A DNA stretch of 64,000 nucleotides from Psychromonas sp. 14N.309.X.WAT.B.A12 (lineage in GTDB: Bacteria > Pseudomonadota > Gammaproteobacteria > Enterobacterales > Psychromonadaceae). The stretch lies in contig NZ_JAPNXS010000006.1 in assembly GCF_030397575.1 (NCBI RefSeq), positions 1 through 64,000 of the forward strand, written 5' to 3'. Under the pieces are notes generated by a model. That model made no database searches. It was not told where the DNA came from and was given only the letters and a program-made list of their open reading frames with translations. A program made the translations under genes and the position numbers. Positions 3,889-20,966 of this stretch are shown piece by piece (positions within the stretch are counted from its first letter, which is position 1; each line of letters begins with the position of its first letter).

Positions 3889-3912
3889 ACATAGTAATAG
3901 GTAAGTAGGCAC

Positions 3913-4668
3913 ATGATAAAAGTAGAAAATATTAACAAACAATATGCCGGTAAACTGGTTGCCAGCAATATCAATGTCGCCTTTGAAAAAGGCAAAGTCA
4001 CCTCCATTATTGGGCCTAATGGTGCGGGAAAAAGCACTTTATTATCTATCATGAGTCGCTTACTTGATAAGGATTCAGGCAGTGTTTATGTAGATGGAAC
4101 TGAGTTAGAAAAATGGGCGACTAAAACCCTAGCGAAAAGACTGGCAGTGTTAAAACAGACTAATAACTTAAATATGCGCTTTACCGTTAAAGAGCTCATT
4201 TCATTTGGACGCTTTCCACATTCACAGGGTAAGTTAACAGACACCGACCGACAGGTAATACAACATGCAATTGAATATTTAGACTTACAAGTAATTCAAG
4301 ATAAGTACCTTGATAACTTGAGTGGTGGACAAAAACAATTAGCATTTATTGCAATGGTAATGGCACAGGATACAGATTACGTTTTACTCGATGAACCTTT
4401 GAATAATTTAGATATCAAACACTCCCTACAGATCATGAAAAACATTCGTCGCCTAGCACATGATATGAATAAAGCCGTGGTGATTGTTATCCACGATATT
4501 AACTTTGCTTCCTGTTATTCCGATAACATCATCGCCATGAAAAATGGTGAAGTTGCCATTGCCGGTAGTGTGCAAGAAGTGATTCGAGCGCCGGTATTAG
4601 AAAGTATTTACGACACTCCTTTTAAAGTTGTGACCTTAGACAACCAAAATGTCTGTGTTTATTATTAA
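3913..4668 (+). CDS. vctC: siderophore ABC transporter ATPase (VctC type)
   Basis: 251 residues, one ABC domain: Walker A GPNGAGKS at 34-41, signature LSGGQ at about 136-140, Walker B VLLDEP at about 157-162 and the switch histidine in VIHDIN. It powers ferric-siderophore import through VctDG. It is the last gene of the iron operon and ends 3 bases from the convergent end of the araC-type gene, with no visible terminator between them, so the two transcripts may overlap. Confidence 0.87.
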   Translation: MIKVENINKQYAGKLVASNINVAFEKGKVTSIIGPNGAGKSTLLSIMSRLLDKDSGSVYVDGTELEKWATKTLAKRLAVLKQTNNLNMRFTVKELISFGRFPHSQGKLTDTDRQVIQHAIEYLDLQVIQDKYLDNLSGGQKQLAFIAMVMAQDTDYVLLDEPLNNLDIKHSLQIMKNIRRLAHDMNKAVVIVIHDINFASCYSDNIIAMKNGEVAIAGSVQEVIRAPVLESIYDTPFKVVTLDNQNVCVYY

Positions 4669-4671
4669 TAC

Positions 4672-5718
4672 CTAACTATTTTTTACTGATTCTGTTGGTG
4701 AATAACCGAACTGCTTTTTAAACGCATTAGTAAAGTTTGAAGGGTGGCGATAGCCTGCGTTATAAGCAACTTCGGTAATTGAAACAGCACCTCTTCCTAA
4801 CTGCTGTTTCGCTATTTCCAAACGTCGACGACGAATATAACTATTAACGCTGCAGCCTAACGTGGCTTTAAATTTCCTTTGCAAGCTAGAAGCACTCATG
4901 GCAGATACTTCAGACAAGGTTTGTATTGAAATTGAATCGTTGATATGTGACTCAATATAGACCATTAGGGCATCTAACCGTTGGTCAAAATGGTTGTCGA
5001 TATTTGATAGATTGGAACCTGCTTGAATTGTATTTTGGATATTGATGTTTTTTAGCTGTTCAAAAATAGTCATAAACAGGGTTAAGGTTAAACTTTCAAC
5101 TTGCATTCTCTGCATAAAATTCGTTGGAGAACTTAAGCGAATCAGATCTTTACTCAAAGACAAGACCTGCTCATTCAACCGCAATTTAAAATAAGCTAAG
5201 TGTTGCGTTAAAAAGGCATAAAAAGATTCTTCTCGATCGCACCTGCTTTCTACCCACTCAATCGGTAAACTAATATTGAGTTTAGTAACATGATTATCTG
5301 CATATAATTGACGATGGAAACTAGCTGGTTTGCTGAGGTTAACTAACACTGCATTACAACTTGTATCTGCATCTAACTCAAAATTAAGTGAGTCATAACC
5401 AAACTCCAACTTACCTTCTAATAAAACAACAATTACTAACGATTTTTGTACAGTAGACAACACTTCAAAATCGATCAGTTCGTGTGTTTTTCCTCCCTGT
5501 AAAGTAAAACCATTATTAACATGATAAGAGATAAGTTGGCCTTCCGACAATGCTAAAGGCGGTGCTTTTTGTGAAGATGAGATATGACGAGAGTAGTGTT
5601 CAGAGATAACAGTTTGGTGATCCTGCTGTTCGAGACAACGTGTCCCACACCCTTTAAGGGTATATTTATTAGCCTCTTCCATGTGCGCTTTCCTCATAAC
5701 ATAATGGTTATTTTGCAT
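4672..5718 (-). CDS. vctR: AraC-family regulator of the siderophore locus (VctR/PchR-like)
   Basis: 348 residues. The C-terminal 100 residues form the AraC double helix-turn-helix: SISIQTLSEVSAMSASSLQR is the first helix pair and ITEVAYNAGYRHPSNFTNAF, with GYSPTE after it, the second. The N-terminal 240 residues are the sensing half and resemble PchR-type siderophore-responsive activators only in general layout. The gene is divergent from the TonB receptor gene and shares an 87-base promoter region holding a Fur-like box. By analogy with V. cholerae it should activate the receptor or transporter genes when the ferric siderophore is present. Confidence 0.75.
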   Translation of the reverse strand: MQNNHYVMRKAHMEEANKYTLKGCGTRCLEQQDHQTVISEHYSRHISSSQKAPPLALSEGQLISYHVNNGFTLQGGKTHELIDFEVLSTVQKSLVIVVLLEGKLEFGYDSLNFELDADTSCNAVLVNLSKPASFHRQLYADNHVTKLNISLPIEWVESRCDREESFYAFLTQHLAYFKLRLNEQVLSLSKDLIRLSSPTNFMQRMQVESLTLTLFMTIFEQLKNINIQNTIQAGSNLSNIDNHFDQRLDALMVYIESHINDSISIQTLSEVSAMSASSLQRKFKATLGCSVNSYIRRRRLEIAKQQLGRGAVSITEVAYNAGYRHPSNFTNAFKKQFGYSPTESVKNS

Positions 5719-5763
5719 AATTGATTAAGCTGTTCTGCCTCCATCAACTCCCCTATTATAAAC

Positions 5764-5782
5764 GCGAATAACTATCATTACT
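5764..5782 (+). promoter_or_regulatory. candidate Fur box between vctR and vctA
   Basis: GCGAATAACTATCATTACT agrees with the Fur consensus at about 12 of 19 positions. It shares the core TAACTAT-ATCATTAC with the site before vctP, which suggests one repressor for both promoters. It is suitably placed to repress vctA and vctR together. Confidence 0.6.
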
Positions 5783-5805
5783 AATTAATAATTTAAGGGA
5801 AGTAA

Positions 5806-7794
5806 ATGGAATTCAAAGCGGTAAAAAATAAGGTTTGTGTAGCAGTATTACTTGGTTTAAGTACACAAGTTATTGCAGAAGATACACAAACAATGGATCA
5901 GATAGTGGTATGGGGAACCAGCGTATCAAGTAATTCAGAAAACTTAGGTGACCAAGATATTTCATTAAAGCAAGCGGATCATATGTCAGATCTTCTTCGT
6001 GATATTCCAGGGGTAGATGTAGGTGGAACGCATTCGTTAACACAGCGTATCAACGTACGTAGTTTAGGGGAAAGTGACTTAGATATTCGTTTGGATGGTG
6101 CATCTCAACATGCGAATATGTTTCATCATATTGGTAACTTAACATTAAATCCCGATATTCTTAAATCTGTTGATATTGAGGTAGGTAATAACTCTGTTAC
6201 TCAATCAGGTTTAGGTGGCACAGTGCTTTTTGAAACTAAAGACGGTAAAGATCTATTACGTAATGGAGAGCAAGTTGGTGCTCGGGTTTATGGTGGTTAC
6301 GCAAGCAATGATAACCAACAAGGTTCTTTAACGGTATACGGTATGTTAAGCGATAAAGTTGACGCAATGATTTACGGTAATATAGTCGACCGCAATAATT
6401 TTGAAGATGGTGATGGCACTGAAACCTACGGTTCAGCAGGTAAAGTATCTAATATCTTATTTAAAGTGGGTTATGAACCTTCTGCTCAGCATCGTTTTGA
6501 ATTGAGCTATGACATGTATCGAGATAGTGGCGACTACAATCCCCGTCCAGATATGTCTGGTGATGCGAACTTAGGGTTAAGTGGTGACTTATTGATCCCT
6601 ACCGATTATGACCGTGACACAATTACCGCTTCCTATCAATTAAAAGGTCAAAAACACACCGGTAAAGCAAATGTTTACATCAGTACCACTGAAATTACAC
6701 GTGACGAAACAGTAATGGAAGGAGTATGGCCAACTAACCGTGTTTCAGTTAATACCGCTAAAAACCAAAATATAGGGATAAATACCCTATTTGAATCTAA
6801 CCTAGTGGTAGGCAGTTTTGATAACCAACTCAATTATGGTGTCGATTTTGTGCACCAAAACAGCAGTAGCACTTATGGTGATACCGACTATATGGATGAA
6901 AATGCTATCTCTAGCGCCATTTTCATTGAAGACCGCTTCTACTTTACCGATAACTTCTCTGTGACAGCCGGTCTCCGTTACGATAATTTCCGTCGTGATG
7001 CCGAAACCAGCGATAAAACATTTGATGATATTACTTGGGCTTTAGGCGTTGATTGGGATGTAACAGAGTCCGTCAGTTTATTTGCCAGTGCTCGAAGTCT
7101 GTTTAAAGGCCCAGAATTACTTGAAACCTTTATACAGTATCAAGACGTTGCCTATTTGGATGATGATATAAAAGCAGAAACAGGTTTAAACAGTGAAGTG
7201 GGAATACGTTACTCAGAATTCTTTGGTGAGCACTCAGTCAGCGCTAGCGCCACTGTCTTTCAGACTAATATTGATGATTACATTACAGAAACCTATCAAG
7301 ATGATGGCTCGTACTTAATCGAAAATATTGGAGATGCGGAAATAAAAGGCTTTGAGTTAAGTACCAGTTATGGGTACGACGCTTTCTTTACCAAGTTATC
7401 TTACTCACGTTCAGATTCAGACAACACAACGACAGGTGGCCCACTTCTTGATGCCAATGGTCGTAGTATGGATATCGGCGATAGTATCTCATTATCATTA
7501 GATTACGAACTATCATCGATCAATTTATTAGTAGGCTGGACATCAAACTTTGTATTAGAAGAAGATAATGTTGAAGATGATAGCGCGGTTAAAGAAGCTT
7601 ACAACACACATGATCTATACGCACAATGGAAGCCATCAAGTATCGAAGGACTACAATTAACCTTTGGCATTGATAACGTAACAGATGAATTATACACCTC
7701 TCATGCATCCAGAACTGGATCAGCTCGTGGTTACACATTAGATGATTATGAACCAGGCCGTAACTTTAAACTATCAGCCGCTTATCAATTCTAA
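5806..7794 (+). CDS. vctA: TonB-dependent siderophore receptor (VctA-like)
   Basis: 662 residues. A signal peptide ends near residue 24 (VIAED). A TonB box (MDQIVVWGT) follows, then a plug domain (LLRDIPGVDV, then INVRSLGESDLDIRLDGA) and a 22-strand-type barrel ending in aromatic F (LSAAYQF). It should carry a ferric siderophore across the outer membrane using TonB energy. RBS AAGGGA lies 8 bases before the ATG. A Fur-like box is upstream, and the periplasmic and inner-membrane importer is next door. Length is normal for catechol receptors; ligand specificity cannot be read from the sequence. Confidence 0.85.
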   Translation: MEFKAVKNKVCVAVLLGLSTQVIAEDTQTMDQIVVWGTSVSSNSENLGDQDISLKQADHMSDLLRDIPGVDVGGTHSLTQRINVRSLGESDLDIRLDGASQHANMFHHIGNLTLNPDILKSVDIEVGNNSVTQSGLGGTVLFETKDGKDLLRNGEQVGARVYGGYASNDNQQGSLTVYGMLSDKVDAMIYGNIVDRNNFEDGDGTETYGSAGKVSNILFKVGYEPSAQHRFELSYDMYRDSGDYNPRPDMSGDANLGLSGDLLIPTDYDRDTITASYQLKGQKHTGKANVYISTTEITRDETVMEGVWPTNRVSVNTAKNQNIGINTLFESNLVVGSFDNQLNYGVDFVHQNSSSTYGDTDYMDENAISSAIFIEDRFYFTDNFSVTAGLRYDNFRRDAETSDKTFDDITWALGVDWDVTESVSLFASARSLFKGPELLETFIQYQDVAYLDDDIKAETGLNSEVGIRYSEFFGEHSVSASATVFQTNIDDYITETYQDDGSYLIENIGDAEIKGFELSTSYGYDAFFTKLSYSRSDSDNTTTGGPLLDANGRSMDIGDSISLSLDYELSSINLLVGWTSNFVLEEDNVEDDSAVKEAYNTHDLYAQWKPSSIEGLQLTFGIDNVTDELYTSHASRTGSARGYTLDDYEPGRNFKLSAAYQF

Positions 7795-7816
7795 TTTATT
7801 TTTTATTACCCATGTT

Positions 7817-7840
7817 GAGGGCCTAACGGCTCTCTTTTTT
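7817..7840 (+). terminator. intrinsic terminator or attenuator after vctA
   Basis: GAGGGCC-TAAC-GGCTCTC (7-bp stem with one G:T pair) is followed directly by six T. Since the DUF2218 gene starts only 17 bases later on the same strand, this may reduce, rather than stop, transcription into it. Confidence 0.7.
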
Positions 7841-7857
7841 ATACTGGAAGCCAAACA

Positions 7858-8148
7858 ATGCATTATAGTAAAACATTAATAAAATCAGAAAATGCCGCTC
7901 GTTACTTGCAAACCCTATGTCGACACTTTTCAAGAAAAGTGCCAGCAGAATGGAATGAGCAAACAGGTAAAGTTAACTTTGCAATGGGCAACTGTGAACT
8001 AACTAACTTAACAGAAAGTAATGAATTAGCTGTTATTTGTAGCGCTGATTCATTGGCTAAATTAACCACAGTTCAACGTATTTTAGAACAACATGTAACC
8101 ATGCTATCCAGAAGAGAAACGATCCATATTGTTTGGATAGAAGGCTGA
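7858..8148 (+). CDS. DUF2218 family small protein
   Basis: 96 residues, no signal peptide or membrane segment. The layout (ENAARYLQTLCRHFSRKVPA near 12-31, the middle strand VNFAMGNCELT, and the end TIHIVWIEG) fits DUF2218, a small cytoplasmic alpha-beta family often found beside siderophore receptor or esterase genes. Its function is unknown; a role in intracellular iron or siderophore handling is inferred only from company. It follows vctA by 63 bases, with an attenuator-like hairpin between. A perfect 10-bp hairpin follows the stop codon. Confidence 0.75.
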   Translation: MHYSKTLIKSENAARYLQTLCRHFSRKVPAEWNEQTGKVNFAMGNCELTNLTESNELAVICSADSLAKLTTVQRILEQHVTMLSRRETIHIVWIEG

Positions 8149-8154
8149 TAATAT

Positions 8155-8182
8155 ATGCTTCTTCCACACTCTGAAGAAGCAT
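8155..8182. terminator. perfect hairpin between the DUF2218 and LysR genes
   Basis: ATGCTTCTTC and GAAGAAGCAT form a perfect 10-bp stem with an 8-base loop. There is no T tract on either side, so use as an intrinsic terminator is uncertain; the convergent position fits a two-way transcription barrier. Confidence 0.5.
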
Positions 8183-8283
8183 GACTGTGCTGTTCATTAA
8201 CAAATAACATTCGTAGCACCAACCAATCGCTCTAGTTTCTTAGCATAAGATTTAGATCTCACCTTTACTAACGGTAATCTTGT

Positions 8284-9195
8284 TTAAGTTTCCATACTCT
8301 TTTGAATATCTTCTTTACAATCCAACACGATATCAGTGAACGCATCAATGATTGCGCTCTCCTCATTACGCCTATATTGTAATTGTAAAGGAATGGCCGT
8401 TTGCACTTTTATCAAGGGAATAAAGTGGCAAGCATCACTATATAATTTACGTACGCAAAATGGGGCAATGGCTACCCCTAACCCTGCCGCTACTTCTGTC
8501 ACTAAGGTTTGCATATGGCGTGGTTGACTCACAATACTAGGAGAAAACCCGGCTTGCTTGCATTGCATAATGGTTTCGTCAAATAAACCAAGAGCTTCAT
8601 CACGATTAAAAATAATAAAAGATTCGTTTTTTAATTCAGCTAAAGCAATATTTTTCTGGTTCGACAGAGGATGATCCTGATTGACTATAGCGACTAATTT
8701 ATCAACGTAAATAGAGTGAGTAACAAAGTCTTGTGCAATCCCACTTGGTAAAGGACGTGAAAAAGCAATGTCTATTCGTCCTGTTTGCAACGCATCAATT
8801 TGCTCCGTTGCAGTCATCTCCAATAAAACTACATTTACTGCTGGGTATTGCTGTTTATAACGGCGTACCAATTTCGCCATAAAGGTGAAACAGGCAGAGC
8901 TAAGGTGAGCAATATGCAGCGTCCCAATTTGTCCATTATTAGCACGTTTCACCTGTGATTTAGCTTGCTCTGTCATCGCTAAAATAGCAGTTGCATCTAC
9001 TAATAACTGTTTTCCTACTTCGGTAATATTTACCTCTCTGGAAGTTCGTTTAAATAAATTGACGCTTAACTCATCTTCTAAAGCCGCTATCTGGCGACTT
9101 ATCGCTGGTTGGACTGTATTTAACTCGCGTGCAGCTTCAGAAAAACTTTTATGCTTAGCCACCACAACAAAACTTTTTAAGGATTTAATATCCAT
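8284..9195 (-). CDS. LysR-family transcriptional regulator
   Basis: 303 residues, the usual LysR length. The N-terminal winged helix-turn-helix (SFSEAARELNTVQPAISRQI, residues about 17-36) is followed by a linker helix and a two-lobed effector domain (GTLHIAHLSSACF onward). It is divergent from the MFS exporter gene, and a dyad lies in the 127-base gap, so it probably controls the exporter and itself. The inducer is unknown. The N-terminal DNA-binding half resembles CbbR/BenM-type members in general only. Confidence 0.85.
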   Translation of the reverse strand: MDIKSLKSFVVVAKHKSFSEAARELNTVQPAISRQIAALEDELSVNLFKRTSREVNITEVGKQLLVDATAILAMTEQAKSQVKRANNGQIGTLHIAHLSSACFTFMAKLVRRYKQQYPAVNVVLLEMTATEQIDALQTGRIDIAFSRPLPSGIAQDFVTHSIYVDKLVAIVNQDHPLSNQKNIALAELKNESFIIFNRDEALGLFDETIMQCKQAGFSPSIVSQPRHMQTLVTEVAAGLGVAIAPFCVRKLYSDACHFIPLIKVQTAIPLQLQYRRNEESAIIDAFTDIVLDCKEDIQKSMET

Positions 9196-9256
9196 CGTGA
9201 GGATCCTTATTTAAACAACTCCACCAATACCATTATTGTATAGATTCAATAAAATA

Positions 9257-9272
9257 ATAACATTTTTGTTAT
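9257..9272. promoter_or_regulatory. dyad in the lysR-MFS promoter gap
   Basis: ATAACA-TTTT-TGTTAT is a perfect inverted repeat of 6-base arms in the shared promoter region. LysR proteins typically bind such AT-rich interrupted dyads, so this is the best operator candidate. Confidence 0.45.
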
Positions 9273-9322
9273 AACCAATGTTCTTTTATGCTTCGCCTAT
9301 GTTCATAGTCTGAGAGTCGAAA

Positions 9323-10498
9323 ATGCCAACAAACACCACTAGCCCATCTTTAAGTCGCTTTATTTTATTATTAATGACCACTGCGATTGCTGCCACAGCG
9401 GCGAATCTTTATTATAACCAGCCAATTTTGCCTTTAATTGCACAAGAGTTTGAACTTACTAGTGGTCAATTAGGTAGCATTCCAGCGTTAACTCAATTCG
9501 GTTACGCTTTTGCATTATTGTTTATTTCACCATTAGGCGATGCCATAGCAAGACGTCGTTTAATCGCTTGCTTATCTAGTCTACTGGTTGCTTCCTCTTT
9601 ACTCGCGGTATTTTCCCCTAATCTCATACTATTATTAATTGCTGTATTTTTAATTGGGGTAAGCGCTAATATTACACAACAACTAATTCCCTTTGCCGCC
9701 TCCATGGTCTCGCCAGAAAACAAAGGCGCAACTTTAAGTACTTTAATGGTGGGATTAACATTAGGTATTTTATTATCAAGAACCTTAAGTGGTTTTGTTG
9801 GTGAACAATTTGGCTGGCGTGCTGTATTTATTATGTCGGCTGGGCTATCTGCTGTGTTTGGGCTGCTATTATTTAGCTTTTTACCACTCAATAAACCACA
9901 CAGTAATCTAGGTTATTGGGCATTAATTAAGAGTACTTTAAGCTTATTTATTAAACATAAGTCATTACAAAAATACACTTTTTCAGGTGCCTGTTGGTTT
10001 GCCTCTTTTAATGTGCTGTGGGCTACTTTAGCTATCCATGTCAGCGATGCCCCTTTTAACTATAATGCCCAACAAGCAGGATTATTTGGTGTCATAGCCT
10101 TGGCCGGCGTCATTGGTGCTAAATTAGCCGGCAGATGGATCAATAAACTTGGCTCTAAAAATGTAGTAATGGTTGCTTTAGTCTTGATTGCATTGGGCTT
10201 TGTTATTACAGGTTTATTCGCGGGTAATCTTATCGCCTTAATTGTCGGTATCATCTTAATTGATTTCGGTATTTTTAGTGCACAAGTAGCAAACCAAGTA
10301 CGAGTATTTAGTATCGACCCGAATGCACAAAGTCGTATCAACGGTATCTATATGCTCGGTTATTACCTAGGTGGCGCGATAGGTTCAGTGGTTGGATTAA
10401 AAGCCTTTGCGTTATATCAATGGCCTGGAGTGATTTCGGTGAGTTTACTGTTTTTATTAGGCAGCGGATGTTTTAATGCATTGGCTAAAAGAACCTAA
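9323..10498 (+). CDS. MFS efflux transporter (arabinose-efflux-like family)
   Basis: 391 residues with about 12 membrane segments. The N terminus AATAANLYYNQPILPLIAQE is characteristic of a drug/sugar-efflux MFS subgroup that often sits beside a LysR gene; the loop between helices 2 and 3 reads GDAIARRR. It should export a small molecule by proton antiport. The substrate is not predictable. Divergent from the LysR gene, which probably regulates it. An 11-bp perfect hairpin follows the stop codon. Confidence 0.8.
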   Translation: MPTNTTSPSLSRFILLLMTTAIAATAANLYYNQPILPLIAQEFELTSGQLGSIPALTQFGYAFALLFISPLGDAIARRRLIACLSSLLVASSLLAVFSPNLILLLIAVFLIGVSANITQQLIPFAASMVSPENKGATLSTLMVGLTLGILLSRTLSGFVGEQFGWRAVFIMSAGLSAVFGLLLFSFLPLNKPHSNLGYWALIKSTLSLFIKHKSLQKYTFSGACWFASFNVLWATLAIHVSDAPFNYNAQQAGLFGVIALAGVIGAKLAGRWINKLGSKNVVMVALVLIALGFVITGLFAGNLIALIVGIILIDFGIFSAQVANQVRVFSIDPNAQSRINGIYMLGYYLGGAIGSVVGLKAFALYQWPGVISVSLLFLLGSGCFNALAKRT

Positions 10499-10504
10499 TC
10501 ATTA

Positions 10505-10532
10505 AAATCGATGCACTATAATGCATCGATTT
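10505..10532. terminator. bidirectional hairpin between the MFS and rpmJ2 genes
   Basis: AAATCGATGCA and TGCATCGATTT form a perfect 11-bp stem with loop CTATAA. Short A/T runs at the arms let it serve both the MFS gene (plus) and the rpmE2-rpmJ2 pair (minus). Confidence 0.65.
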
Positions 10533-10545
10533 CGTGATTTATACA

Positions 10546-10671
10546 CTAGCCCTGCCTTGCTTTAAAGCGCGGGTTAGTTTTGCAAATAACGTAAGATTTC
10601 CCCTTCCTTCTCACAATCTGACAGTCAGGGTGGCGTGTTTTAGCACTTTTTAATGAACTCAATACTTTCAT
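10546..10671 (-). CDS. rpmJ2: alternative ribosomal protein L36, zinc-free form (RpmJ2/YkgO)
   Basis: 41 residues: begins [20 protein letters not shown], followed by [21 protein letters not shown]. It is the C-minus paralogue of L36: of the four zinc ligands of the normal form, the first cysteine and the histidine are gone while two cysteines remain. It replaces zinc-bound L36 in the ribosome when zinc is scarce. It starts 8 bases after the rpmE2 stop with a G-rich Shine-Dalgarno (GGGGGCAAG), so it is translated from the same message. The gene is easily missed because of its length. Confidence 0.92.
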
Positions 10672-10679
10672 CTTGCCCC

Positions 10680-10928
10680 CTAAGACTTTAATTTACCAAA
10701 GCGATTATTAAACTTAGCAACGCGACCGTCATGTGCAACAACAGTCTGTTTACCAGTGTAATAAGGATGAGATTCGCTTGACACCTCAATCGCGTAATAA
10801 GGGTACGTCTGTCCATCTATCTCGACGGTTTTACTAGGTTGTAGAGTGGAACCGACGATAAAGTACTTATCCACAGATGTGTCGTGAAAAGCCACTTTTT
10901 GGTATTTAGGGTGAATATTCTCTTTCAT
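10680..10928 (-). CDS. rpmE2: alternative ribosomal protein L31, zinc-free form (RpmE2/YkgM)
   Basis: 82 residues starting [17 protein letters not shown]31 type B. It has no cysteine at all, so it cannot hold the zinc of standard L31. Under zinc limitation it displaces RpmE from the 50S subunit and frees zinc; this is established for the E. coli, Bacillus and Streptomyces homologues. It is followed by rpmJ2 in one operon, and a palindrome of Zur type lies just upstream. Confidence 0.93.
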
Positions 10929-10939
10929 AAAAAGCCTCT

Positions 10940-11129: not shown

Positions 11130-12974
11130 TTAAATAACTTTATCAATAGAAAGTGTTGCCATATACCCTTCCCAACCACCAAACTCTGTAATATCTTTTG
11201 CTGATTCAATAGCATAACCTTCACAGATAAAACTAGTTACCCAGCTTCCATCGGCGAGTTGAATTTTACCTAGTCCTAGTGGTTGAGGGATGCCTGTTAA
11301 AAAACTACCCACAGTACTTTCTGGTAAACGCCATACTTCAACGTCAATGGCTGCACCTTGCTCTGCTACTCTGATTAAACCAGGACGAAATGGAGGCCCC
11401 CCCGCTAACGCATAAAAACGATAATCGGCCGAGGTCTTAGTGCTTTTTACTAGATACGCCCCACGCTCAGTCAATTGATGGTTGAGTGGAAAACCAGTGA
11501 GGTGTGCACCACATACCGCTATATCAACCTGTCCCTCTTTTGCTTCTGAGCTTAATGTTTGCTCAACATCACTGAGTTTATGTGCTGTCGCACCTAAAGT
11601 GAAATTGGTTGTTTTTTGCCATTGAGCACCGACACTTAATAACAAGCGGTCACTAAAAGCAGGGCCAAACAGCGTAATACCAAATGGTAAACCTGAAGAC
11701 AATAACCCAGCAGGTAACGCAATTGCGGCATAGTCTAACAGGTTCATAAAGTTGGTGTAATAACCTAGATTTGAATTAAGTTGAATTGGGTCTGCTTCAA
11801 CCTCTTTTATGCGGTAAGCAGTGCCTGCCGTAGGGGTTAATACGCAATCTAATTCCGATAAAATAGCGTCACACTGTACTTTAAATGCTTGTAAACGATA
11901 CATTGCTTTAAAAGTATCTACTGCTGAATGTGCCGTTGCACCGCCCACGATAGTTTGTATCACTGGTAAACACTGTGTTGGATCCGCTTTAAAAAACGCT
12001 TCAATCGCAGCATAACGTTCAGCCACCCAAGGTCCTTCATAGAGTAATCTCGCCGCATCTAAAAATGGTTGGAAATTGATAATAATAATCTCTGCACCAG
12101 CCTCTTTTAAACGCTCAACACTGGTTTCAAATAACATTTGAGCACCATAGTCACCAAAAAAATTCAACTGTGATGCTTCAGGTATTCCAACTTTTAAACC
12201 AGTCAGTGTTCTATTTGTATCATAATGCTCTGCACTGTTGGTTAGTAAATTATCACGTGAATAACAATCATCAGCATCTAACTCTGATGCTATATCTAAC
12301 ACCAGATTCACTTCACTGGTACTGTTAGCAAAAATAGTCACACAATCTAAGCTTTTACAGGCTGGCACCACACCAGTACAACTAATTAATCCCTTAGTTG
12401 CCTTCATACCCACAATGTTATTTAATGCGGCTGGTACACGACCGGAGCCCGCTGTATCAGTGCCTAAAGAAAAGCTAACCTGCCCAGTTGCAACGGCAAC
12501 TGCACTACCAGAGCTTGAGCCTCCAGAAACATAGTCAGGATCAAAGCTATTATTCACTGCTCCCCAAGGACTGCGCACACCCACTAAACCCGTTGCAAAC
12601 TGATCAAGGTTAGTTTTACCTAGTGGGATAGCTCCCGCTTCAATCAATAGTTTTACAACACTTGATGACTCAGTAGGTTGAAATGAATAGGCTTCACAAG
12701 CAGCGGTAGTGGGTAACATAGCAAAATCGATATTATCTTTAGCTGCAAATGGCACTCCATATAATGGCAACTCATCGATAGATTTAGACTCAAGTACCGT
12801 TAACATCTGATCAAGTTGTTCTTCAGAAATGGTGCAGATCCAAACATTACTGGTATCGTTTTTTGCCTGTACTAACTTTTCTTTTAAGAATGTTTTAACG
12901 TTTAACTCACCACTACGGTAAGCCGCTTTTAACAGGTCTATATTCATATTTTGTTGTAGCATTAACTTGTCCAT
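11130..12974 (-). CDS. atzF: allophanate hydrolase
   Basis: 614 residues. Amidase-signature domain from about 30 to 440 with the Ser-cisSer-Lys triad: lysine in FAAKDNID, then GGSSSGSAVAVATG and DTAGSGRVPA with the nucleophile serine. The C-terminal 150 residues are the extra domain typical of full-length allophanate hydrolases. It converts allophanate to two ammonia and two CO2. Its start codon overlaps the carboxylase stop by one base (TAATG), so translation is coupled. Being last in an operon with a carboxylase and two DUF1989 proteins under guanidine riboswitches, its substrate should come from carboxyguanidine. Confidence 0.9.
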   Translation of the reverse strand: MDKLMLQQNMNIDLLKAAYRSGELNVKTFLKEKLVQAKNDTSNVWICTISEEQLDQMLTVLESKSIDELPLYGVPFAAKDNIDFAMLPTTAACEAYSFQPTESSSVVKLLIEAGAIPLGKTNLDQFATGLVGVRSPWGAVNNSFDPDYVSGGSSSGSAVAVATGQVSFSLGTDTAGSGRVPAALNNIVGMKATKGLISCTGVVPACKSLDCVTIFANSTSEVNLVLDIASELDADDCYSRDNLLTNSAEHYDTNRTLTGLKVGIPEASQLNFFGDYGAQMLFETSVERLKEAGAEIIIINFQPFLDAARLLYEGPWVAERYAAIEAFFKADPTQCLPVIQTIVGGATAHSAVDTFKAMYRLQAFKVQCDAILSELDCVLTPTAGTAYRIKEVEADPIQLNSNLGYYTNFMNLLDYAAIALPAGLLSSGLPFGITLFGPAFSDRLLLSVGAQWQKTTNFTLGATAHKLSDVEQTLSSEAKEGQVDIAVCGAHLTGFPLNHQLTERGAYLVKSTKTSADYRFYALAGGPPFRPGLIRVAEQGAAIDVEVWRLPESTVGSFLTGIPQPLGLGKIQLADGSWVTSFICEGYAIESAKDITEFGGWEGYMATLSIDKVI

Positions 12975-15900
12975 TATAGTTTCTCCAAAATCATTAAGCG
13001 TTGCCCTGCATGTACTTGTGCACCCTCTTTTTGTACAATATTCATGACCTTACCATCGGCAGGCGCAACCACTTCTATCTCCATTTTCATTGCTTCTAAA
13101 ATTAACAGGGTTTGTCCTGCTTTGACTGTTTCACCAAGTTTTACTAATACCTGCCAGATATTGCCAGCTACATGGCTGTCTACTCCACGTTGCTGCTCGG
13201 TTAATGTGGCAATATCGGTTTCGATTTGTGTCATCTCTTTTGCCACGAAATTAGCTTGTCCGGTCTCCTGCCAACGTTGACGTTCCGCTTCAAAAGCTTG
13301 TTGTTGCTTTTCTTTGAAGGTCACAATCGATTCTTGATCTGCACTTAATTGTGCTTGGTATTCAGCAAGGCTAAAGGTGGTCTCTTGGATTTTTAAGGGG
13401 TAATCACCGCGTGGGAAATCTTTACGGATTTGCGTTAATTCTTCACTACTCACAGGGTAAAAACGGATCTGGTCAAAAAAGCGTAATAGCCACGGTTTTT
13501 TGAACTCTTCTGTTTGGCGGTAACGATTCCACATTTGTAATGTGCGTCCCACAAACTGATAACCACCAGGACCTTCCATACCATAAACACATAAGTAAGC
13601 ACCACCGATACCCACGGCATTTTCTGGCGTCCAAGTTCTTGCTGGGTTGTATTTTGTAGTCACTAAACGATGACGAGGGTCTAAGGGAGTTGCTACCGGA
13701 GCGCCTAAATAGACATCTCCTAACCCCATCACAAGATAACTGGCATTGAATACAATGTCTTTCACTTGTTCAACGGACTCAAGGCCATTAATACGACGAA
13801 TAAACTCGATATTATCAGGGCACCAAGGTGCATCTTTGCGCACTAATTCATCGTATTTTTTAATCGCTAAACGTGTCGCATAATCATCCCAAGAAAGTGG
13901 GATATTAACGATTCGTGATGGCACTGAAAGTTGACTATCATCACCTAAGCTCTGTTCAGCATCTACAACGATGTCGAGTAACTGTTTAAGTGGTAATTGT
14001 AAATTATCGTAATGAATTTGCAGCGATCGGATACCCGGAGTTAACTCTTGCATGCCTTGTAGTTTCAGACTTTGCAATTTCAACATTAATGCATGCACGC
14101 GAAAACGTAATGCAACATCTAATACCTGTTGCCCATATTCCACTAATAGGTAGTCTTCACCACTGGCACGAAATACCACTTGTTCATTTAATGCCGTTTT
14201 ATCAAGTTGTTTAATAATCGCACTTTCTGGTAAAACAGTTGGTAATTTTTGTGCTAGATATTGCCCTTGTTCGATTGCCGCTAATTGTGCTAGTTCAAAC
14301 TGTTGTGCATCTTCGATAGAGACGGCTTGGAAGCGAATGGTTGCACCAGCTTTCAGCTGACCAACTTTCCATAAATCTGCTTTAATGATGGTGACCGGGC
14401 AAACAAACCCACCTAAGCTTGGGCCATCTGGTCCTAAAATCACCGGCATATCACCAGTAAAGTCTATGGTACCAACTGCATAAGCGTTATCGTGGATATT
14501 CGATGGGTGTAACCCAGCTTCCCCACCATCATTACGAGCCCATTTTGGTTTTGGTCCCATTAAACGGACACCTGTACGGCTTGAGTTAAAATGCACTTTC
14601 CATGTAGCATTAAAAAATGCGTCGATATCTTCTGGCTGGAAAAAGTCAGGCGCGCCATGAGGACCGTAAATAACACGAATAGTCCAGTCATCGCTGATTT
14701 CAGGTAATTGAGCAGTTAGGTTATTTTCCACAGGTGCAGTTTGAGCTAAATCTTCAATATGTAATACGTCGCCAGTTCGGATAGCTCGCCCTGCATGACC
14801 GCCAAATTGCCCCAAGGTAAAGGTCGATTTACTACCTAAATAATCAGGGCATTGAATACCACCTTGCACAGCTAAGTAACTACGAGCACCAGCACCTTGA
14901 ATATTACCTAAAGTCAGCGTTTGACCGGCTTGTACTGTAATGATTTTACCAACTTTGATGCTCTCTTGGTCCAACTCAGCTTGAATAGTTGCCCCTGTCA
15001 GAATAAATCGCGTCGCACTATTAAACTTTAATGTAGGACCACTGACGGTAATCTCTAATCCTGCATCACTTTTTTCGTTTCCTAATAAAGTATTACCTAA
15101 GCAAAAACTCATGCTATCCATTGGGCCTGATGGCGGTACCCCGACATCCCAATAGCCTTTACGTCCGGGATAATCTTGAATAGTGGTTTGCGTGCCTCCA
15201 GCTAAAACATCAATAGAGCAAGGTAAGTAGGTAAACTGATTTAAGGTTTGTGTTAATAACTCGCCCGCTTCAACAATATCGTTATTTAATAGCTGCAATA
15301 AATAGTCTTTGTTACTTTCAATACCGTACACTTGGCTGTCGGATAATGCTTGTTTCAAACCATTTAATGCAAGAGAGCGGTTTTCACTATGACAAATCAC
15401 TTTAGCTAGCATAGGGTCAAAGAATGGTGATACTTCTACCCCACTTTCTAGCCAATGATCAATACGTAACTGCCCTTGTTCAACTTCTGTAGCCCATTTT
15501 ACATGGCTGATTAAACCGGCACTTGGTTGGAAATCTTTATTCGCATCTTCTGCATAAAGACGTACTTGAATTGCATGACCATTAACAGCTAAGTTACTGC
15601 CCAACTCTACCACTGGAGGTAAGGTATTAGCCGCTAAGCTAACCATCCAATTCACTAAGTCAACACCGTACACCATTTCCGTGACACCGTGCTCTACTTG
15701 TAAACGAGTGTTTACTTCTAAGAAGTAAAATTGCTGTGCTTGCTGGTCAAATACAAACTCTACAGTACCTGCACTACGATAGTTCACCATCGCTGCTAGA
15801 CGTGTCGCTGTTTGATGGAGTTCGCTACGCAGCTGTTCACTTAAATTCGGTGCAGGGCTTTCTTCAATCACCTTTTGGTTACGACGTTGTGCCGAACAAT

Positions 15901-16579
15901 CACGCTCACCTAGTGCGATTGCGCCGCCTTTACCATCACCAAAAATTTGCACTTCAATATGACGTGCTTGCACAATAAACTTTTCTAAAAACAACGCACT
16001 ATTGCTGAAGTTATTTTCACTTAACCTTTTAACTGAGTCGTAAGCTTGGCTTAGCTCTTCAGCACTATTGCAGCGTTGCATGCCAATACCGCCACCACCA
16101 GCAGTACTTTTTAACATCACTGGGTAACCAATTACATCAGCACGTTGCAATGCTTCTTCTACACTGTTTAATAAATCACTACCCGGCAATAATGGAACGT
16201 TTGCTTGTTCTGCTAATTCACGTGCTCGGTGCTTTAGACCAAACTGCAACATCTGTTCAGCAGTTGGTCCTAAAAACACCAGTCCATTGGCTTCACAGGC
16301 AGCAACAAAATCTACATTTTCACTTAAAAAACCATACCCAGGATGAATAGCCTGTGCACCACATTGTTTAGCAATGTTGATCACTTTATCCATATCAAGA
16401 TAGGTTTGCTTAGCATTGCCTTCCCCTAAGGAGAATGCATGGTCAGCTTGTGAAACATGAAGGCTATCAGCATCTGCTTGACTATAGATAGATACACTTT
16501 CGATCCCCATGGCAGTGAGTGTTCTAATAATACGGCAAGCGATAGCACCACGATTGGCAATTAATACTTTAGTAAACAT
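12974..16579 (-). CDS. biotin-dependent guanidine carboxylase (urea carboxylase family)
   Basis: 1201 residues. Domains in order: biotin carboxylase ([16 protein letters not shown] at the start, the ATP-grasp glycine loop [22 protein letters not shown]), carboxyltransferase halves of KipA/KipI type from about 470 to 1050 ([20 protein letters not shown], then [11 protein letters not shown], then [20 protein letters not shown]), and a C-terminal biotinyl domain with EAMKM, biotin on about Lys1165. It uses ATP and bicarbonate. It would usually be called urea carboxylase, but members found with paired DUF1989 genes and guanidine riboswitches act on guanidine, making carboxyguanidine. A guanidine-II riboswitch precedes its start codon. 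RBS AAAGG, spacing 9. Confidence 0.85.
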
Positions 16580-16585
16580 AATAGT

Positions 16586-16649
16586 GACCTTTTACAGGTC
16601 GGGTCGTCCCGAATTAATACTGAGAAATTAGTAACAAGGTCGTCCTTGT
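16586..16649 (-). promoter_or_regulatory. guanidine-II (mini-ykkC) riboswitch before the carboxylase gene
   Basis: Read on the minus strand: P1 is ACAAGG-ACGA-CCTTGT (16649-16634), a 21-nt linker follows, and P2 is TCGGG-ACGA-CCCGA (16612-16599). Two small hairpins with identical ACGA loops closed by GG/CC are the definition of the mini-ykkC motif (loop ACGR). Just after P2, GACCT (16600-16596) can pair with AGGTC (16590-16586), which contains the Shine-Dalgarno of the carboxylase. GACCT shares two bases with the 3' arm of P2, so P2 (ligand bound) and the SD-blocking hairpin exclude each other: a translational on-switch. Confidence 0.88.
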
Positions 16650-16688
16650 ATTCTCATTGATTGTATTGAATCAATTTGTGCGTAACCT

Positions 16689-17327
16689 TTAGTCCCACAC
16701 CAACATTTCTACAGGAGTTGGATTGTAAGCATTACATGGATTATTTAACTGAGGGCAGTTAGATAATAATACGATCACGTCCATTGCAGCTTTCATTTCA
16801 ACATACTTACCAGCACCACTGATACCATCTTCAAAGGTTAGCCCGCCCTCTTTGGTTACAGGTACATTCATGAAGAAGTTAATGTTATGGGTAATATCTC
16901 GCTTGCTTAAACCATATTGTGGGTTCTCAGCAACCGCTAATAACCAACTATCACGACAAGCATGCATGCACTTTTTCTCTAGCGAGTAACGTACGGTATT
17001 ACTTTCCGTTGCACATGCACCGCCTAATGTATCGTGACGACCACAGGTATCAGCAGTAATTTCTAGCAGAGTATTACCATCGTTCGATAGTAGTTTGGTA
17101 CCCGCTGTGAGGTATACATTCCCTTGCTCGCGAATCGTATCCATTGCGCTGTAACGCTCACTTGGATCCTTAGCATTATAAAATAAGGTATCAGCGGCTT
17201 GGTTTCCTTCTAAATCTAAAATACGTAAGGTTTGTCCTGCTTTCACTACTTTCATGTAGTAATCACCGGCAGGAACTGTATCGCGACGTACCGCTTGTTC
17301 AGCTTGTAGTGGACTTTCAGCGATCAT
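16689..17327 (-). CDS. DUF1989 protein, carboxyguanidine deiminase subunit (urea carboxylase-associated)
   Basis: 212 residues from the ATG at 17327; a longer frame starts at 17366, but 17327 has TAGGAG at the right distance and begins 2 bases after the previous stop. It is a DUF1989 family member with [12 protein letters not shown] near residue 42, [23 protein letters not shown] and [10 protein letters not shown]. It was formerly called urea amidolyase-associated protein; in guanidine operons two such proteins form the carboxyguanidine deiminase CgdAB, which turns carboxyguanidine into allophanate and ammonia. Which of the two genes is cgdA and which cgdB is not decided here. The cysteine-rich motifs and the conserved His/Asp are consistent with metal-dependent hydrolysis. 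Confidence 0.8.
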
Positions 17328-17329
17328 AA

Positions 17330-18100
17330 TTATGCTCCTACAGTGTGTGTGTGAGTGTGTTGGCACTGATAACGACGGTTATTTTCAAATCCACGTGTAT
17401 TTTCTCCACATAGATTTGCACAAAGGTCATCATCGGCAATAGGCGCAGCTTTACTGACTGATAATAAAACAGGTAAATTTGGGTATTTATTACTTGGATT
17501 CATAGGATGCGGACAAGTTGAAATAACCACCAAAGTATCAATTTCAAAACGCAATCCAACACTATCACCTGCTTTACTGTGCTGTTCAACAAAATTTAAG
17601 TCGCCTTGGTCATCGGTAGTCACTTTGCTAAAAATATTAATATTGGCAGCAAGGTCGCGTTTTCCTAATCCATATTTAGCAACTTCTACTAACAAACTAT
17701 CATAGCCATTTTGTAACCAGTTATTGTGGTCACCTTGATAATCACGTACGCCCCACTTATCTAACACTTTTTGCTTGTTAGCCACGCCCCCAACACTATC
17801 AATCCACCCCGTATCATCACTAACAATAGAACAGAAGATTCTTCCCATATCAGAATATAAACAGTGGCCCTGTGTCAGTTTAAAGGTGTGCTGCCCTTTT
17901 AATGTATCTGGCGCGTTATAACGTTCTAATAAATTATTTGGGTTATAAAACAACATGGATGCGTTTGCACCACCCTCCAAGTCAGTAACGGTCAATAAAT
18001 GCCCTGCTGGCACAACGAGTGACCAGTGACTTGCACCGGGTATATGCTCTTCATAAATCGCATCTGCAACGCGACTTTGTGGTTGTTGATTTTGTTGCAT
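17330..18100 (-). CDS. DUF1989 protein, second carboxyguanidine deiminase subunit
   Basis: 256 residues. Paralogue of the following gene product: [16 protein letters not shown] lines up with [26 protein letters not shown] with [11 protein letters not shown], and [14 protein letters not shown] with [14 protein letters not shown]. This copy lacks the two cysteine motifs of its partner and carries a Cys-containing tail ([11 protein letters not shown]). It is expected to form a heteromer with the partner in carboxyguanidine deimination. The gene ends in a CA-rich run coding alternating His-Thr (17341-17360), and the next gene begins right after its stop. Confidence 0.8.
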
Positions 18101-18109
18101 TTTATTCTC

Positions 18110-18901
18110 CTAAACAGTTTTTTCCGTAACTGTATTTTTAACTAAATGTTGCAGTGATGAAGGGACTGCTTGCCCGGTTTCCAGCAAGATATCATAGACG
18201 ATTTGAGCTCCGAATCGCTCGGGAGCTTGGGGATCAATACGTGGTTTATCTAATACCCAAACACGAGAGCCTAGGCTAAAACCTTCTGATAAATCATGCG
18301 TGATCATAAATACGGTTAAGCCACGCTTTTTCCAAAGATCACGAATTAATTCGTGCATATCTTTACGAATACCAGGATCTAAAGCACCAAAAGGTTCATC
18401 TAATAATAGGATACGTGGTTCTTTAATTAAGGCTTGTGCAATGGCTAGACGTTGCTGCATACCGCCGGACATTTCGTTAGGATAACGTTGCGCTGCATGG
18501 CCTAACCCAACCGCCGTTAGCATTTCTAATGCCGCTGCTTTTAGTTTATTACGTTTATTTTTTGAAAAGACTTTGCCTAGTAATGGAGAAGCCGCAAACT
18601 CCCCTCCTAACATGACATTTTCTAGTGCATTGAGGTGTGGAAAAGCAGAGTACTTTTGAAACACTATGCCACGTGTTTCATTAGGCTCAGCGGGCATCGT
18701 TTCACCATCTAACAAAATATTGCCACGGCTTGGTGTTTCAGTTCCTAACAACATATTTAATAAAGTTGTTTTACCGCAGCCTGATGCGCCAACAATACTT
18801 ACAAATTCACCGGCTTTTACACTTAAATCTACCTTCTCTAAAACCACTGTAGAACCATATTCTTTCCACACTTGTTTCATTTCAATAATGTTATTTTTCA
18901 T
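18110..18901 (-). CDS. ABC transporter ATPase, guanidine importer
   Basis: 263 residues, nitrate/taurine-type ABC ATPase: Walker A GASGCGKT near 37-44, signature MSGGMQQRLAIAQAL, Walker B ILLLDEPFGALD and switch MITHDLSEGF. It powers the permease encoded just before it. Its ATG overlaps the permease stop (TAATG), and the first DUF1989 gene starts 9 bases after its own stop. The substrate is inferred to be guanidine from the riboswitches and the enzymes in the same operon; related clusters are often annotated as urea uptake. Confidence 0.85.
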   Translation of the reverse strand: MKNNIIEMKQVWKEYGSTVVLEKVDLSVKAGEFVSIVGASGCGKTTLLNMLLGTETPSRGNILLDGETMPAEPNETRGIVFQKYSAFPHLNALENVMLGGEFAASPLLGKVFSKNKRNKLKAAALEMLTAVGLGHAAQRYPNEMSGGMQQRLAIAQALIKEPRILLLDEPFGALDPGIRKDMHELIRDLWKKRGLTVFMITHDLSEGFSLGSRVWVLDKPRIDPQAPERFGAQIVYDILLETGQAVPSSLQHLVKNTVTEKTV

Positions 18902-19722
18902 TAATCATTTCCTCGCTTACCGTGGTACCAAGGGAAAGCACGTTGAGAAAGCAACCGTAATAGTGCATCCATCACAAAGGCTAATACCGCAATCCACAAC
19001 ACATAAGGTAGAATGACATCCATCGCAAGGTATCGACGAATCAAAAAGATGCGATAACCTAACCCTTCTGTTGCTGCAATCGCTTCACCTGCAATTAAAA
19101 ATAACCAAGCACTACCTAAAGTTAAACGCACAGCATCTAATAAAGCAGGCAATACTTGTGGCAACACCACTCTAACCATGATTTGCCAGCTATTTGCACC
19201 TAGCGTCTGAGCCTTCAATAATTGTTCTGAAGGTAATGACTCTGTACGTAACTGTAAATCTCGAATTAGAATCGGACAGATTCCAATGATAATTAACATC
19301 ACTTTTGATAGTTCACCTAAACCAAATACAATAAATAATACTGGTAGAATAGCCATCGGCGGGATTAATGAGATAGCAGTGATCAGGGGAGAGAATGTGG
19401 CACGCATAATCGGTAGCATGCCATTTACAACACCAATCACTAAGCCGATCAATGCACTTATACCAACGCCTAGCAATAAACGCTGTAAACTTGCACCAGT
19501 ATCAACCCATAACAGATATTCACCAGTTCGTTTACTCGGTTCAAAGGCCATACGGTGTATTGCATCATAAAAGCTAGACCAGGCAGGTAGCAACTTGTCA
19601 CTTGGGTTTTCTAATAGACGTGCATCAGATGCCATCGTATAAGCAATTATCAAGATAACAAACGGTAACAGCGTTAATAAGAATCGTGTGGTACGACTTG
19701 GTTTGCTATTCATTAATCTCAT
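18901..19722 (-). CDS. ABC transporter permease, guanidine importer
   Basis: 273 residues with about six membrane segments; binding-protein-dependent permease of the SsuC/TauC/NrtB type. The coupling motif is LGANSWQIMVRVVLPQVLPA (EAA loop) near 170-189. RBS AAGG is 10 bases before the ATG. It should form a homodimeric channel for the substrate bound by the upstream periplasmic protein. It overlaps the ATPase gene by one base. Confidence 0.85.
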   Translation of the reverse strand: MRLMNSKPSRTTRFLLTLLPFVILIIAYTMASDARLLENPSDKLLPAWSSFYDAIHRMAFEPSKRTGEYLLWVDTGASLQRLLLGVGISALIGLVIGVVNGMLPIMRATFSPLITAISLIPPMAILPVLFIVFGLGELSKVMLIIIGICPILIRDLQLRTESLPSEQLLKAQTLGANSWQIMVRVVLPQVLPALLDAVRLTLGSAWLFLIAGEAIAATEGLGYRIFLIRRYLAMDVILPYVLWIAVLAFVMDALLRLLSQRAFPWYHGKRGND

Positions 19723-19733
19723 AATGATCAGCC

Positions 19734-20822
19734 TTATAGTTTGTTATCAATAGCCATTTGCATGAAGCTTGGGTCAAAACGTAACTTAATATTACTTTTA
19801 TCACCGTAAACCCCTGTTGGTGTTTCTATACCGATGAATTTAGCATCAGCTGCGCCTTCGCCTAATAAACCATGTTCAAAAGAAAATTCAGCAACTTTAT
19901 CCATAGTACTTAACAGTGCAGGGCTATTGTTAAACTCAACGGCATCTTTTGCATCATAAAACATTTTAGTTGACGCTAATTGAGCATCGTAGCCGGCTAA
20001 ATCAGTGCCTGAAGCATCAGCCATTGCGCTGCGAGCCATAGTTGCTTTTGCATCATCGCCTTGCATGGTTTGCATTATTTCGTACCATGCTCCGGTTAAT
20101 GCTTTACCTAGTTTAGGGTTATCAGCTAACACATCTGAGTTAACCACTAATAGGTCAATGATCTCACCAGGGATCTGTGAAGAATCAAACACTTTATTAG
20201 TATCTGGCATCGCAGTTATTTCACTTAATAATGGATTCCAAGTTGTGACGGCAGTAACATCATCAGTAGTAAATGCAGCGACTAAATCGGCATCAGAAGT
20301 ATTAACAACACGTACATCACGCTCTGTTAGTGAAACAGTTTGTAAAGCACGGGTAAGGAGATAGTGAGAAACACTTAATTCAACCAAGTTGACGTTTTGG
20401 CCTTTGATATCAGCTAAGTTATCAGTGCCTTTTAAAACAACCGCATCATTACCATTAGAGAAATCTCCGATAATAAGTGAAGTTGAATCAACACCACTGG
20501 CAGCTGGAATGGTTAGAGCATCCATGTTAGTCATTACAGTTGCATCAAATTGACCCGCTGTGTACTGATTAATTGACTCAACATAGTCATTGATTTGAAC
20601 AATATCGATTTTAATATCGTATTTATCAGCCCATTTTTTAACAATGCCTGAAGTCGCACCATAATCCCATGGCATCCACCCTACATAGATGGTCCAAGCT
20701 AACCGGAATTCTGATTTAGTTTCTGCGAAGGCAGTGGAAGGGGTAACAATTAAGGCACTACATAATGTGCTAACGGTAAGTACTTTAGTGATTGATTTAC
20801 GTAGGTATTTAGTTAATTCCAT
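19734..20822 (-). CDS. periplasmic substrate-binding protein of the guanidine importer
   Basis: 362 residues with a signal peptide ending near residue 33 (STAFAETKS). It has the NMT1/ABC nitrate-taurine-type binding fold: WTIYVGWMPWDYGATSGIVKKW resembles the first strand and helix of the urea-carboxylase-region binding proteins, and VVNTSDADLVAAF marks the second lobe. It is the first gene of the operon, 37 bases after the guanidine-I aptamer, with AAGGAG before the ATG. The ligand is most likely guanidine; this is inference from the regulation and the downstream enzymes. Confidence 0.82.
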   Translation of the reverse strand: MELTKYLRKSITKVLTVSTLCSALIVTPSTAFAETKSEFRLAWTIYVGWMPWDYGATSGIVKKWADKYDIKIDIVQINDYVESINQYTAGQFDATVMTNMDALTIPAASGVDSTSLIIGDFSNGNDAVVLKGTDNLADIKGQNVNLVELSVSHYLLTRALQTVSLTERDVRVVNTSDADLVAAFTTDDVTAVTTWNPLLSEITAMPDTNKVFDSSQIPGEIIDLLVVNSDVLADNPKLGKALTGAWYEIMQTMQGDDAKATMARSAMADASGTDLAGYDAQLASTKMFYDAKDAVEFNNSPALLSTMDKVAEFSFEHGLLGEGAADAKFIGIETPTGVYGDKSNIKLRFDPSFMQMAIDNKL

Positions 20823-20858
20823 TTCTTTTCTCCTTAGTTACACATTTAAAAGCATGAG

Positions 20859-20966
20859 AGACATTGTTGCGTCTTCTCCCGGGCTTTTATCCCTCCGTGT
20901 AACCTTAGAAAAAAGGTCGACAACTCTCGGACCAGTCACTGCGAACAGCCGGAACCCTAGATGTCT
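20859..20966 (-). promoter_or_regulatory. guanidine-I (ykkC) riboswitch at the head of the operon
   Basis: The minus strand holds the conserved blocks of the ykkC motif in order: CTAGGGTTCCG (5' side), ACTGGTCCGAGAG (middle), ACACGGAGGGATAAAAGC followed by CCGGGAGA (3' side). P1 can form between AGACAT (20966-20961) and ATGTCT (20864-20859). The 3' end lies 36 bases before the first start codon. No terminator with T tract is visible, so control is probably at translation: GTGTAAC just before the AAGGAG site can pair with GTTACAC in the aptamer (20903-20897). Confidence 0.93.

Follow-up and report, generated by a model that had tools for sequence, protein, structure and literature searches.

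An internal guanidine-II riboswitch and a predicted Shine-Dalgarno hairpin before the carboxylase gene of a guanidine-I-headed operon in Psychromonas

The window, that is, the whole stretch of 64,000 nucleotides analysed here, contains a minus-strand run of seven genes whose first start lies at 20822. The run begins with genes for an ABC transporter substrate-binding protein (19734–20822; TIGR03427, ‘putative urea ABC transporter’, 555.2 bits against a cut-off of 333.9), an ABC permease (18901–19722; PF00528) and an ABC ATPase (18110–18901; PF00005). It continues with two DUF1989 proteins of the UAAP1 (17330–18100; TIGR03425, 309.5 bits) and UAAP2 (16689–17366; TIGR03424, 339.7 bits) families, which we take to be the subunits of carboxyguanidine deaminase, and closes with a urea/guanidine carboxylase of 1201 residues (12974–16579, ATG at 16579; TIGR02712, 1841.2 bits against a cut-off of 1303.85) and an allophanate hydrolase (11130–12974; TIGR02713, 792 bits). 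Just 3′ of the operon, short minus-strand genes at 10560–10930 presumably encode ribosomal proteins L36 and L31, as read by eye, and the 3′ part of a tRNA gene, truncated by the window edge, occupies positions 1–46 of the plus strand. The gene content matches the published guanidine carboxylase pathway, and the order guanidine-I, importer, deaminase, guanidine-II, carboxylase and allophanate hydrolase given in a 2025 review (PMC12186494) is found in full.

The guanidine-I aptamer that heads the operon (RF00442; 20874–20971, minus strand) scores 87.6 bits against a cut-off of 63 (E value of 2.5e-14). Its conserved 3′ end is overlapped by a terminator-like hairpin, GGGAGAAGAC...GTCTCTC with a CTTTT tail (20848–20887, minus strand), which folds with −10.3 kcal/mol, an AAAG/CTTT pairing included, and which a simple terminator scan does not list. 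The arrangement GGGAGA...TCTC followed by CTTTT is present in all seven genus genomes, including that of the window, with a differing best fold in one of them (G002). It fits the transcriptional ON switch that guanidine-I is reported to be in the available portion of the review (PMC12186494).

The second aptamer, guanidine-II or mini-ykkC (RF01068; 16651-16599, minus strand), sits in the 109-base gap 5′ of the carboxylase gene and scores 35.7 bits against a gathering cut-off of 32. The E value is 0.0018 over the whole window times 4227 families (cmscan) and 2.6e-5 across the whole genome, where this is the sole guanidine-II match at E ≤ 0.001 and guanidine-III gives no match at the same threshold. 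The element consists of hairpin P1 (ACAAGG-ACGA-CCTTGT; 16634–16649), a linker of 21 nt (16613-16633) and hairpin P2 (TCGGG-ACGA-CCCGA; 16599–16612), all on the minus strand; P2 ends 19 nt from the carboxylase ATG, so that the aptamer adjoins the site where ribosomes would bind to translate a guanidine gene. Both loops are ACGA closed by GG/CC, consistent with the ACGR loops described for this class in the accessible text of PMC9094411, and the linker falls within the range of 7–40 nt given in that of PMC7544219. Across 39 distinct aptamers, the window's included, the outer pairs 4–8 of P1 form in 150 of 195 cells (mean of 82.9, s.d. 6.2, highest 100 in 1000 shuffles that swap arms between genomes and ignore their relatedness) and pairs 4–6 of P2 in 93 of 117 (mean of 67.8, s.d. 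3.8, highest 79 with arms swapped in the same way). The excess of formed pairs over swapped arms suggests that both stems are selectively maintained. For this set, four of 48 further loci were dropped for having fewer than two hairpins, and one locus without a start (L003) was not counted as gdx. A chance match is ruled out by the covariance-model score, the genome-wide E value and the stem covariation, and at the level of sequence the element is confirmed as a true guanidine-II riboswitch. An earlier note on this DNA had already named it as such, with two ACGA hairpins 21 nt apart, a two-base overlap of P2 with a third hairpin, and an internal position before the carboxylase of an operon headed by guanidine-I. 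These features are exact in the sequence or backed by both Rfam matches, and the checks that the note proposed, the ykkC and mini-ykkC covariance models and covariation of the stems, bear out the assignment.

Below P1, the minimum free energy fold adds a helix, P0, in which GAGAA (16651–16655, minus strand) pairs with TTCTC (16622–16626, minus strand) within the P1–P2 linker, position 16651 facing 16626 and 16655 facing 16622, and thereby encloses P1; a possible sixth pair would use 16656 (TGAGAA with TTCTC(A)). The P0 partners co-vary among congeners (TGAGT/ACTCA, GAGC/GCTC and AAGC/GCTT) and are weakest in congener G005 (TGAG/TTCA). With swapped linkers as a control, the observed P0 score is reached in 11 of 2000 cases for the genus and in 21 of 2000 for 36 carboxylase leaders from elsewhere. 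P0 is best regarded as extending P1 across a bulge. Just 5′ of it, the fold also contains an A+T-rich hairpin, ATTGATT/AATCAAT (16656-16675, minus strand), and two congeners (G019 and G009) show, by eye, a different A+T-rich inverted repeat near P0.

On the other side of the aptamer, hairpin P3 (GACCT-GTAAA-AGGTC; 16586–16600, minus strand), whose stem is also returned by a terminator-like scan, holds the Shine-Dalgarno sequence AAGG (16588–16591, minus strand), with its first base 12 nt 5′ of the A of the ATG. Two bases, 16600 and 16599, are common to P3 and the 3′ arm of P2. Seven carboxylase-linked guanidine-II copies, the window's included, were found among 24 genomes of the genus, the other six carboxylases being 83–94% identical to that of the window, and P3 stands in the same register in all seven, with loops of 3–5 bases that mostly differ. 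In congener G005 the stem reads AACCT/AGGTT: a G-C pair has become A-U by changes on both sides, and the change breaks the fourth P2 pair (C.A); the guanidine-II match of this congener, at 29.8 bits, lies below the Rfam cut-off. Since the seven copies are related, they do not count as independent cases of conservation, and other constraints also act on part of P3 (GA, AGG).

Folding with RNAfold, whose model does not include kissing loops, gives a free window leader of −24.4 kcal/mol in which P3 stands together with the three inner P2 pairs; as the two coexist, ligand binding need not exclude P3. When full-length P2 is forced (−22.9 kcal/mol), the outer two P3 pairs open and the U and C of AGGUC are freed, with AGG still paired in a modelled three-pair stem. 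The cost of opening the Shine-Dalgarno sequence drops from 3.57 to 2.16 kcal/mol when P1 and P2 are forced, a gain of 1.4 kcal/mol, and a drop of more than 0.5 kcal/mol is obtained for six of the seven genus copies. The seventh, from G005 (4.67 to 4.71 kcal/mol), shows no modelled release because its fourth P2 pair is broken while P3 is kept. The visible on/off mechanism claimed in the earlier note is thus plausible but weaker than claimed, given the coexistence of P3 with inner P2, the gain of 1.4 kcal/mol and the behaviour of G005. The further suggestion of the note, that the switch would subject the costly carboxylase to a second ligand check, is a conjecture about its role.

The same note had regarded a guanidine-II switch at an internal gene of a guanidine-I-headed operon as a layout not known as described. 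This is not the case: the two-switch layout is stated for three enterobacteria, Raoultella terrigena, Erwinia rhapontici and Klebsiella michiganensis (PMC12186494, section 6), and is common in the order. Among 394 genomes of the order, 38 carry guanidine-I, 95 guanidine-II and 31 both, and in 28 of the 38 guanidine-II follows guanidine-I on the same contig and strand at a distance of 4.1–6.8 kb; the corresponding values for 369 genomes of the class are 29, 27 and 15, with guanidine-II 3.3–5.1 kb downstream on the same strand in 11 of the 29 and no guanidine-II match in 14 (both samples include the window genome, and weak matches are lost under the stricter filters applied to them). Guanidine-II lies directly 5′ of the carboxylase in 28 of 28 order and 10 of 11 class genomes, G178 being the exception. 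Carboxylases close to that of the window (52–62% identity) occur at 19 of 80 loci, and the 18 that were scanned (L127 was left out) include 11 with guanidine-I, six with guanidine-II and five with both (L109, L111, L113, L116 and L118), four of these five with guanidine-II directly before the carboxylase. The layout is exemplified by Pseudomonas laurylsulfatiphila, Caballeronia pedi, Enterobacteriaceae bacterium RIT714 and a Chromatiales MAG; in a Hyphomicrobium MAG the second switch precedes another gene, and guanidine-I and carboxylase loci of Methylophilaceae, Acinetobacter (three), Neorhizobium and Aliarcobacter have no guanidine-II at the cut-off. A separate observation is that guanidine-II lies directly before a gene for a PF00487 desaturase-like membrane protein in G178, G186 and G356 (L071 and L086 among the loci), an arrangement for which one literature search turned up a single paper of apparently unrelated content. 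G178 (L100, reversed coordinates 3328-10570) assembles three guanidine switches in one cluster.

This distribution bears on a tentative but credible alternative, in which a carboxylase–hydrolase cassette retained the internal switch as its own inherited leader when it was combined with an import/deaminase cassette under separate regulation; the switch may then head its own transcript, and the double control would be a by-product of assembly. In congener G015 (L092, 10967-13672) the transporter set differs, with 26–40% identity to that of the window, the deaminase, carboxylase and hydrolase are 90–96% identical, and the switches are 6.8 kb apart. G178 likewise has one switch per block, with guanidine-I at the transporter, guanidine-II at the desaturase-like gene and guanidine-I at the deaminase genes, and the class genomes with guanidine-I and no guanidine-II match indicate that the layout is facultative. 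However, its retention in most guanidine-I genomes of the order, with guanidine-II directly before the carboxylase, suggests that the arrangement is kept. In addition, a promoter scan of the minus strand between 16651 and 19564, 5′ of the internal switch, found nothing promoter-like, the scanned region as a whole having 12 such sites on both strands against a mean of 14.9 expected. The absence of a consensus promoter weakly suggests a single transcript for both switches, and an independent transcript as the default was rejected on the same weak argument.

Comparison of leaders bears on how the internal switch might act. The 45 guanidine-II contexts assembled comprise the window, six named loci and 38 genome stretches (19 that share contig and strand with a guanidine-I aptamer, one short contig with none (G039), and 18 more drawn from the order and class samples); carboxylase loci that lack such a guanidine-I partner on their contig and strand, among them L062-L065, L067 and L083, were left out. 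Guanidine-II is directly before the carboxylase in 43 contexts, and those of G178 and Hyphomicrobium, before other genes, were dropped from leader modelling, which together with 13 gdx leaders gave 56 modelled leaders: seven genus carboxylase, 36 carboxylase from elsewhere and 13 gdx. P3 in its genus form occurs in none of the 38 contexts other than the seven genus copies; in five of these 38 the best-scoring local hairpin is a different one of 4–5 pairs at the same offset. When P1 and P2 are forced, release exceeds 0.5 kcal/mol in nine of the 13 gdx leaders, by various pairings, and in none of the 36 carboxylase leaders outside the genus, three of which go the opposite way (for two of the 36, which have no Shine-Dalgarno match, a fixed window was used); the P3 release mechanism is therefore not general. 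Shine-Dalgarno matches in these 36 leaders are short (median of 3 nt).

Start-region pairing also differs between the groups. Mean base-pair probabilities in gdx leaders are 0.224 with the linker, 0.180 with downstream bases and 0.139 with P2; in genus carboxylase leaders they are 0.311 with downstream bases, 0.126 with P2 and 0.008 with the linker, and in the other carboxylase leaders 0.249 with downstream bases and 0.167 with the linker. One aptamer thus appears to serve several platforms. No linker anti-Shine-Dalgarno is found in the window leader, where ensemble linker pairing rounds to 0.0, and linker pairing is modelled in three of the four gdx leaders of the genus (L004, L005 and L008). 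Not every gdx leader relies on the linker: in four that come from other genera (L060, L068, L070 and L074), most of the pairing is to P2 or to downstream bases, and because P2 bases are involved there too, the P2 overlap is not peculiar to the genus.

An unlikely alternative is an aptamer that folds and binds while translation is set mainly by a feature other than P3, such as the linker or the nearness of the aptamer to the start codon. The 36 carboxylase copies elsewhere show no modelled release, yet have P2 close to the ATG (median of 18 nt, range 10–69), and G005 keeps P3 without full P2. Within the genus, however, P3 is conserved, once with compensation, and release is modelled in all copies but one. 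An off state in which the Shine-Dalgarno sequence pairs with the 3′ arm of P1 (GACCTT/AAGGTC) is highly improbable, for although the window leader offers six complementary bases, this pairing is lost in G005 and G010, where P1 has GACCCT, and in each of the seven genus copies the start region has an ensemble pairing with P1 that rounds to 0.0.

The reading that we favour, with a probability of roughly three in four, is that guanidine-II acts as a translational ON switch for the carboxylase, and through coupling for the hydrolase, inside an operon headed by a transcriptional-ON guanidine-I switch. Without guanidine, the P3 hairpin would bury the Shine-Dalgarno sequence. With guanidine present, P1 and P2 would kiss, favouring full-length P2, which would take two bases from P3 and free the Shine-Dalgarno sequence; translation of the allophanate hydrolase would follow that of the carboxylase by coupling. 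With a transcriptional guanidine-I and a translational guanidine-II switch, the same ligand would gate both levels, and most likely, in our model, they operate serially, with class I controlling transcription and class II the translation of the carboxylase.

A more specific version is somewhat unlikely, in our estimation: guanidine-II of the genus may have gained a platform of its own, P0 together with a P3 in competition with P2, which would set it apart both from the genus gdx leaders with their linker pairing and from the carboxylase copies elsewhere. With guanidine-I it may form a two-level gate, in which import and deamination would switch on before carboxylation, the latter requiring more guanidine. 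Confidence in this version, and in the favoured reading, is lowered by the P2 overlap in gdx leaders outside the genus and by the one genus gdx leader that does not use the linker. Affinities of the two guanidine classes do not appear in the available portion of PMC12186494; if the thresholds of the switches differ, the operon would offer a natural example of a single ligand being sensed twice, in transcription and in translation.

In Raoultella, Erwinia and Klebsiella, the importer and carboxyguanidine deaminase genes are associated with guanidine-I, and the carboxylase and allophanate hydrolase genes lie directly downstream under guanidine-II (PMC12186494). The operon described here shares this layout in a different organism, and neither P3 nor P0 is discussed in section 6 of that review; the published layout is thereby extended to another genus, with counts of its frequency. 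A ribosome-binding-site hairpin overlapping P2 has, as such, already been proposed: for the guanidine-II switch of Gloeobacter violaceus, the accessible text of a 2017 study describes a proposed stem-loop that overlaps P2 and the ribosome binding site and is exclusive with the folded switch (PMC5486947), and the P3/P2 overlap resembles this proposal when the two are compared by description. Modestly new, then, is the predicted release of the Shine-Dalgarno sequence from P3 upon formation of P1 and P2 in this genus. For guanidine-II switches of the gdx/sugE type, a putative anti-Shine-Dalgarno in the P1–P2 linker and translational ON control have been proposed, according to the accessible part of PMC9094411; the window has the same aptamer but pairs its start region in P3 rather than with the linker, suggesting that, even inside one genus, different platforms are coupled to the same small aptamer.
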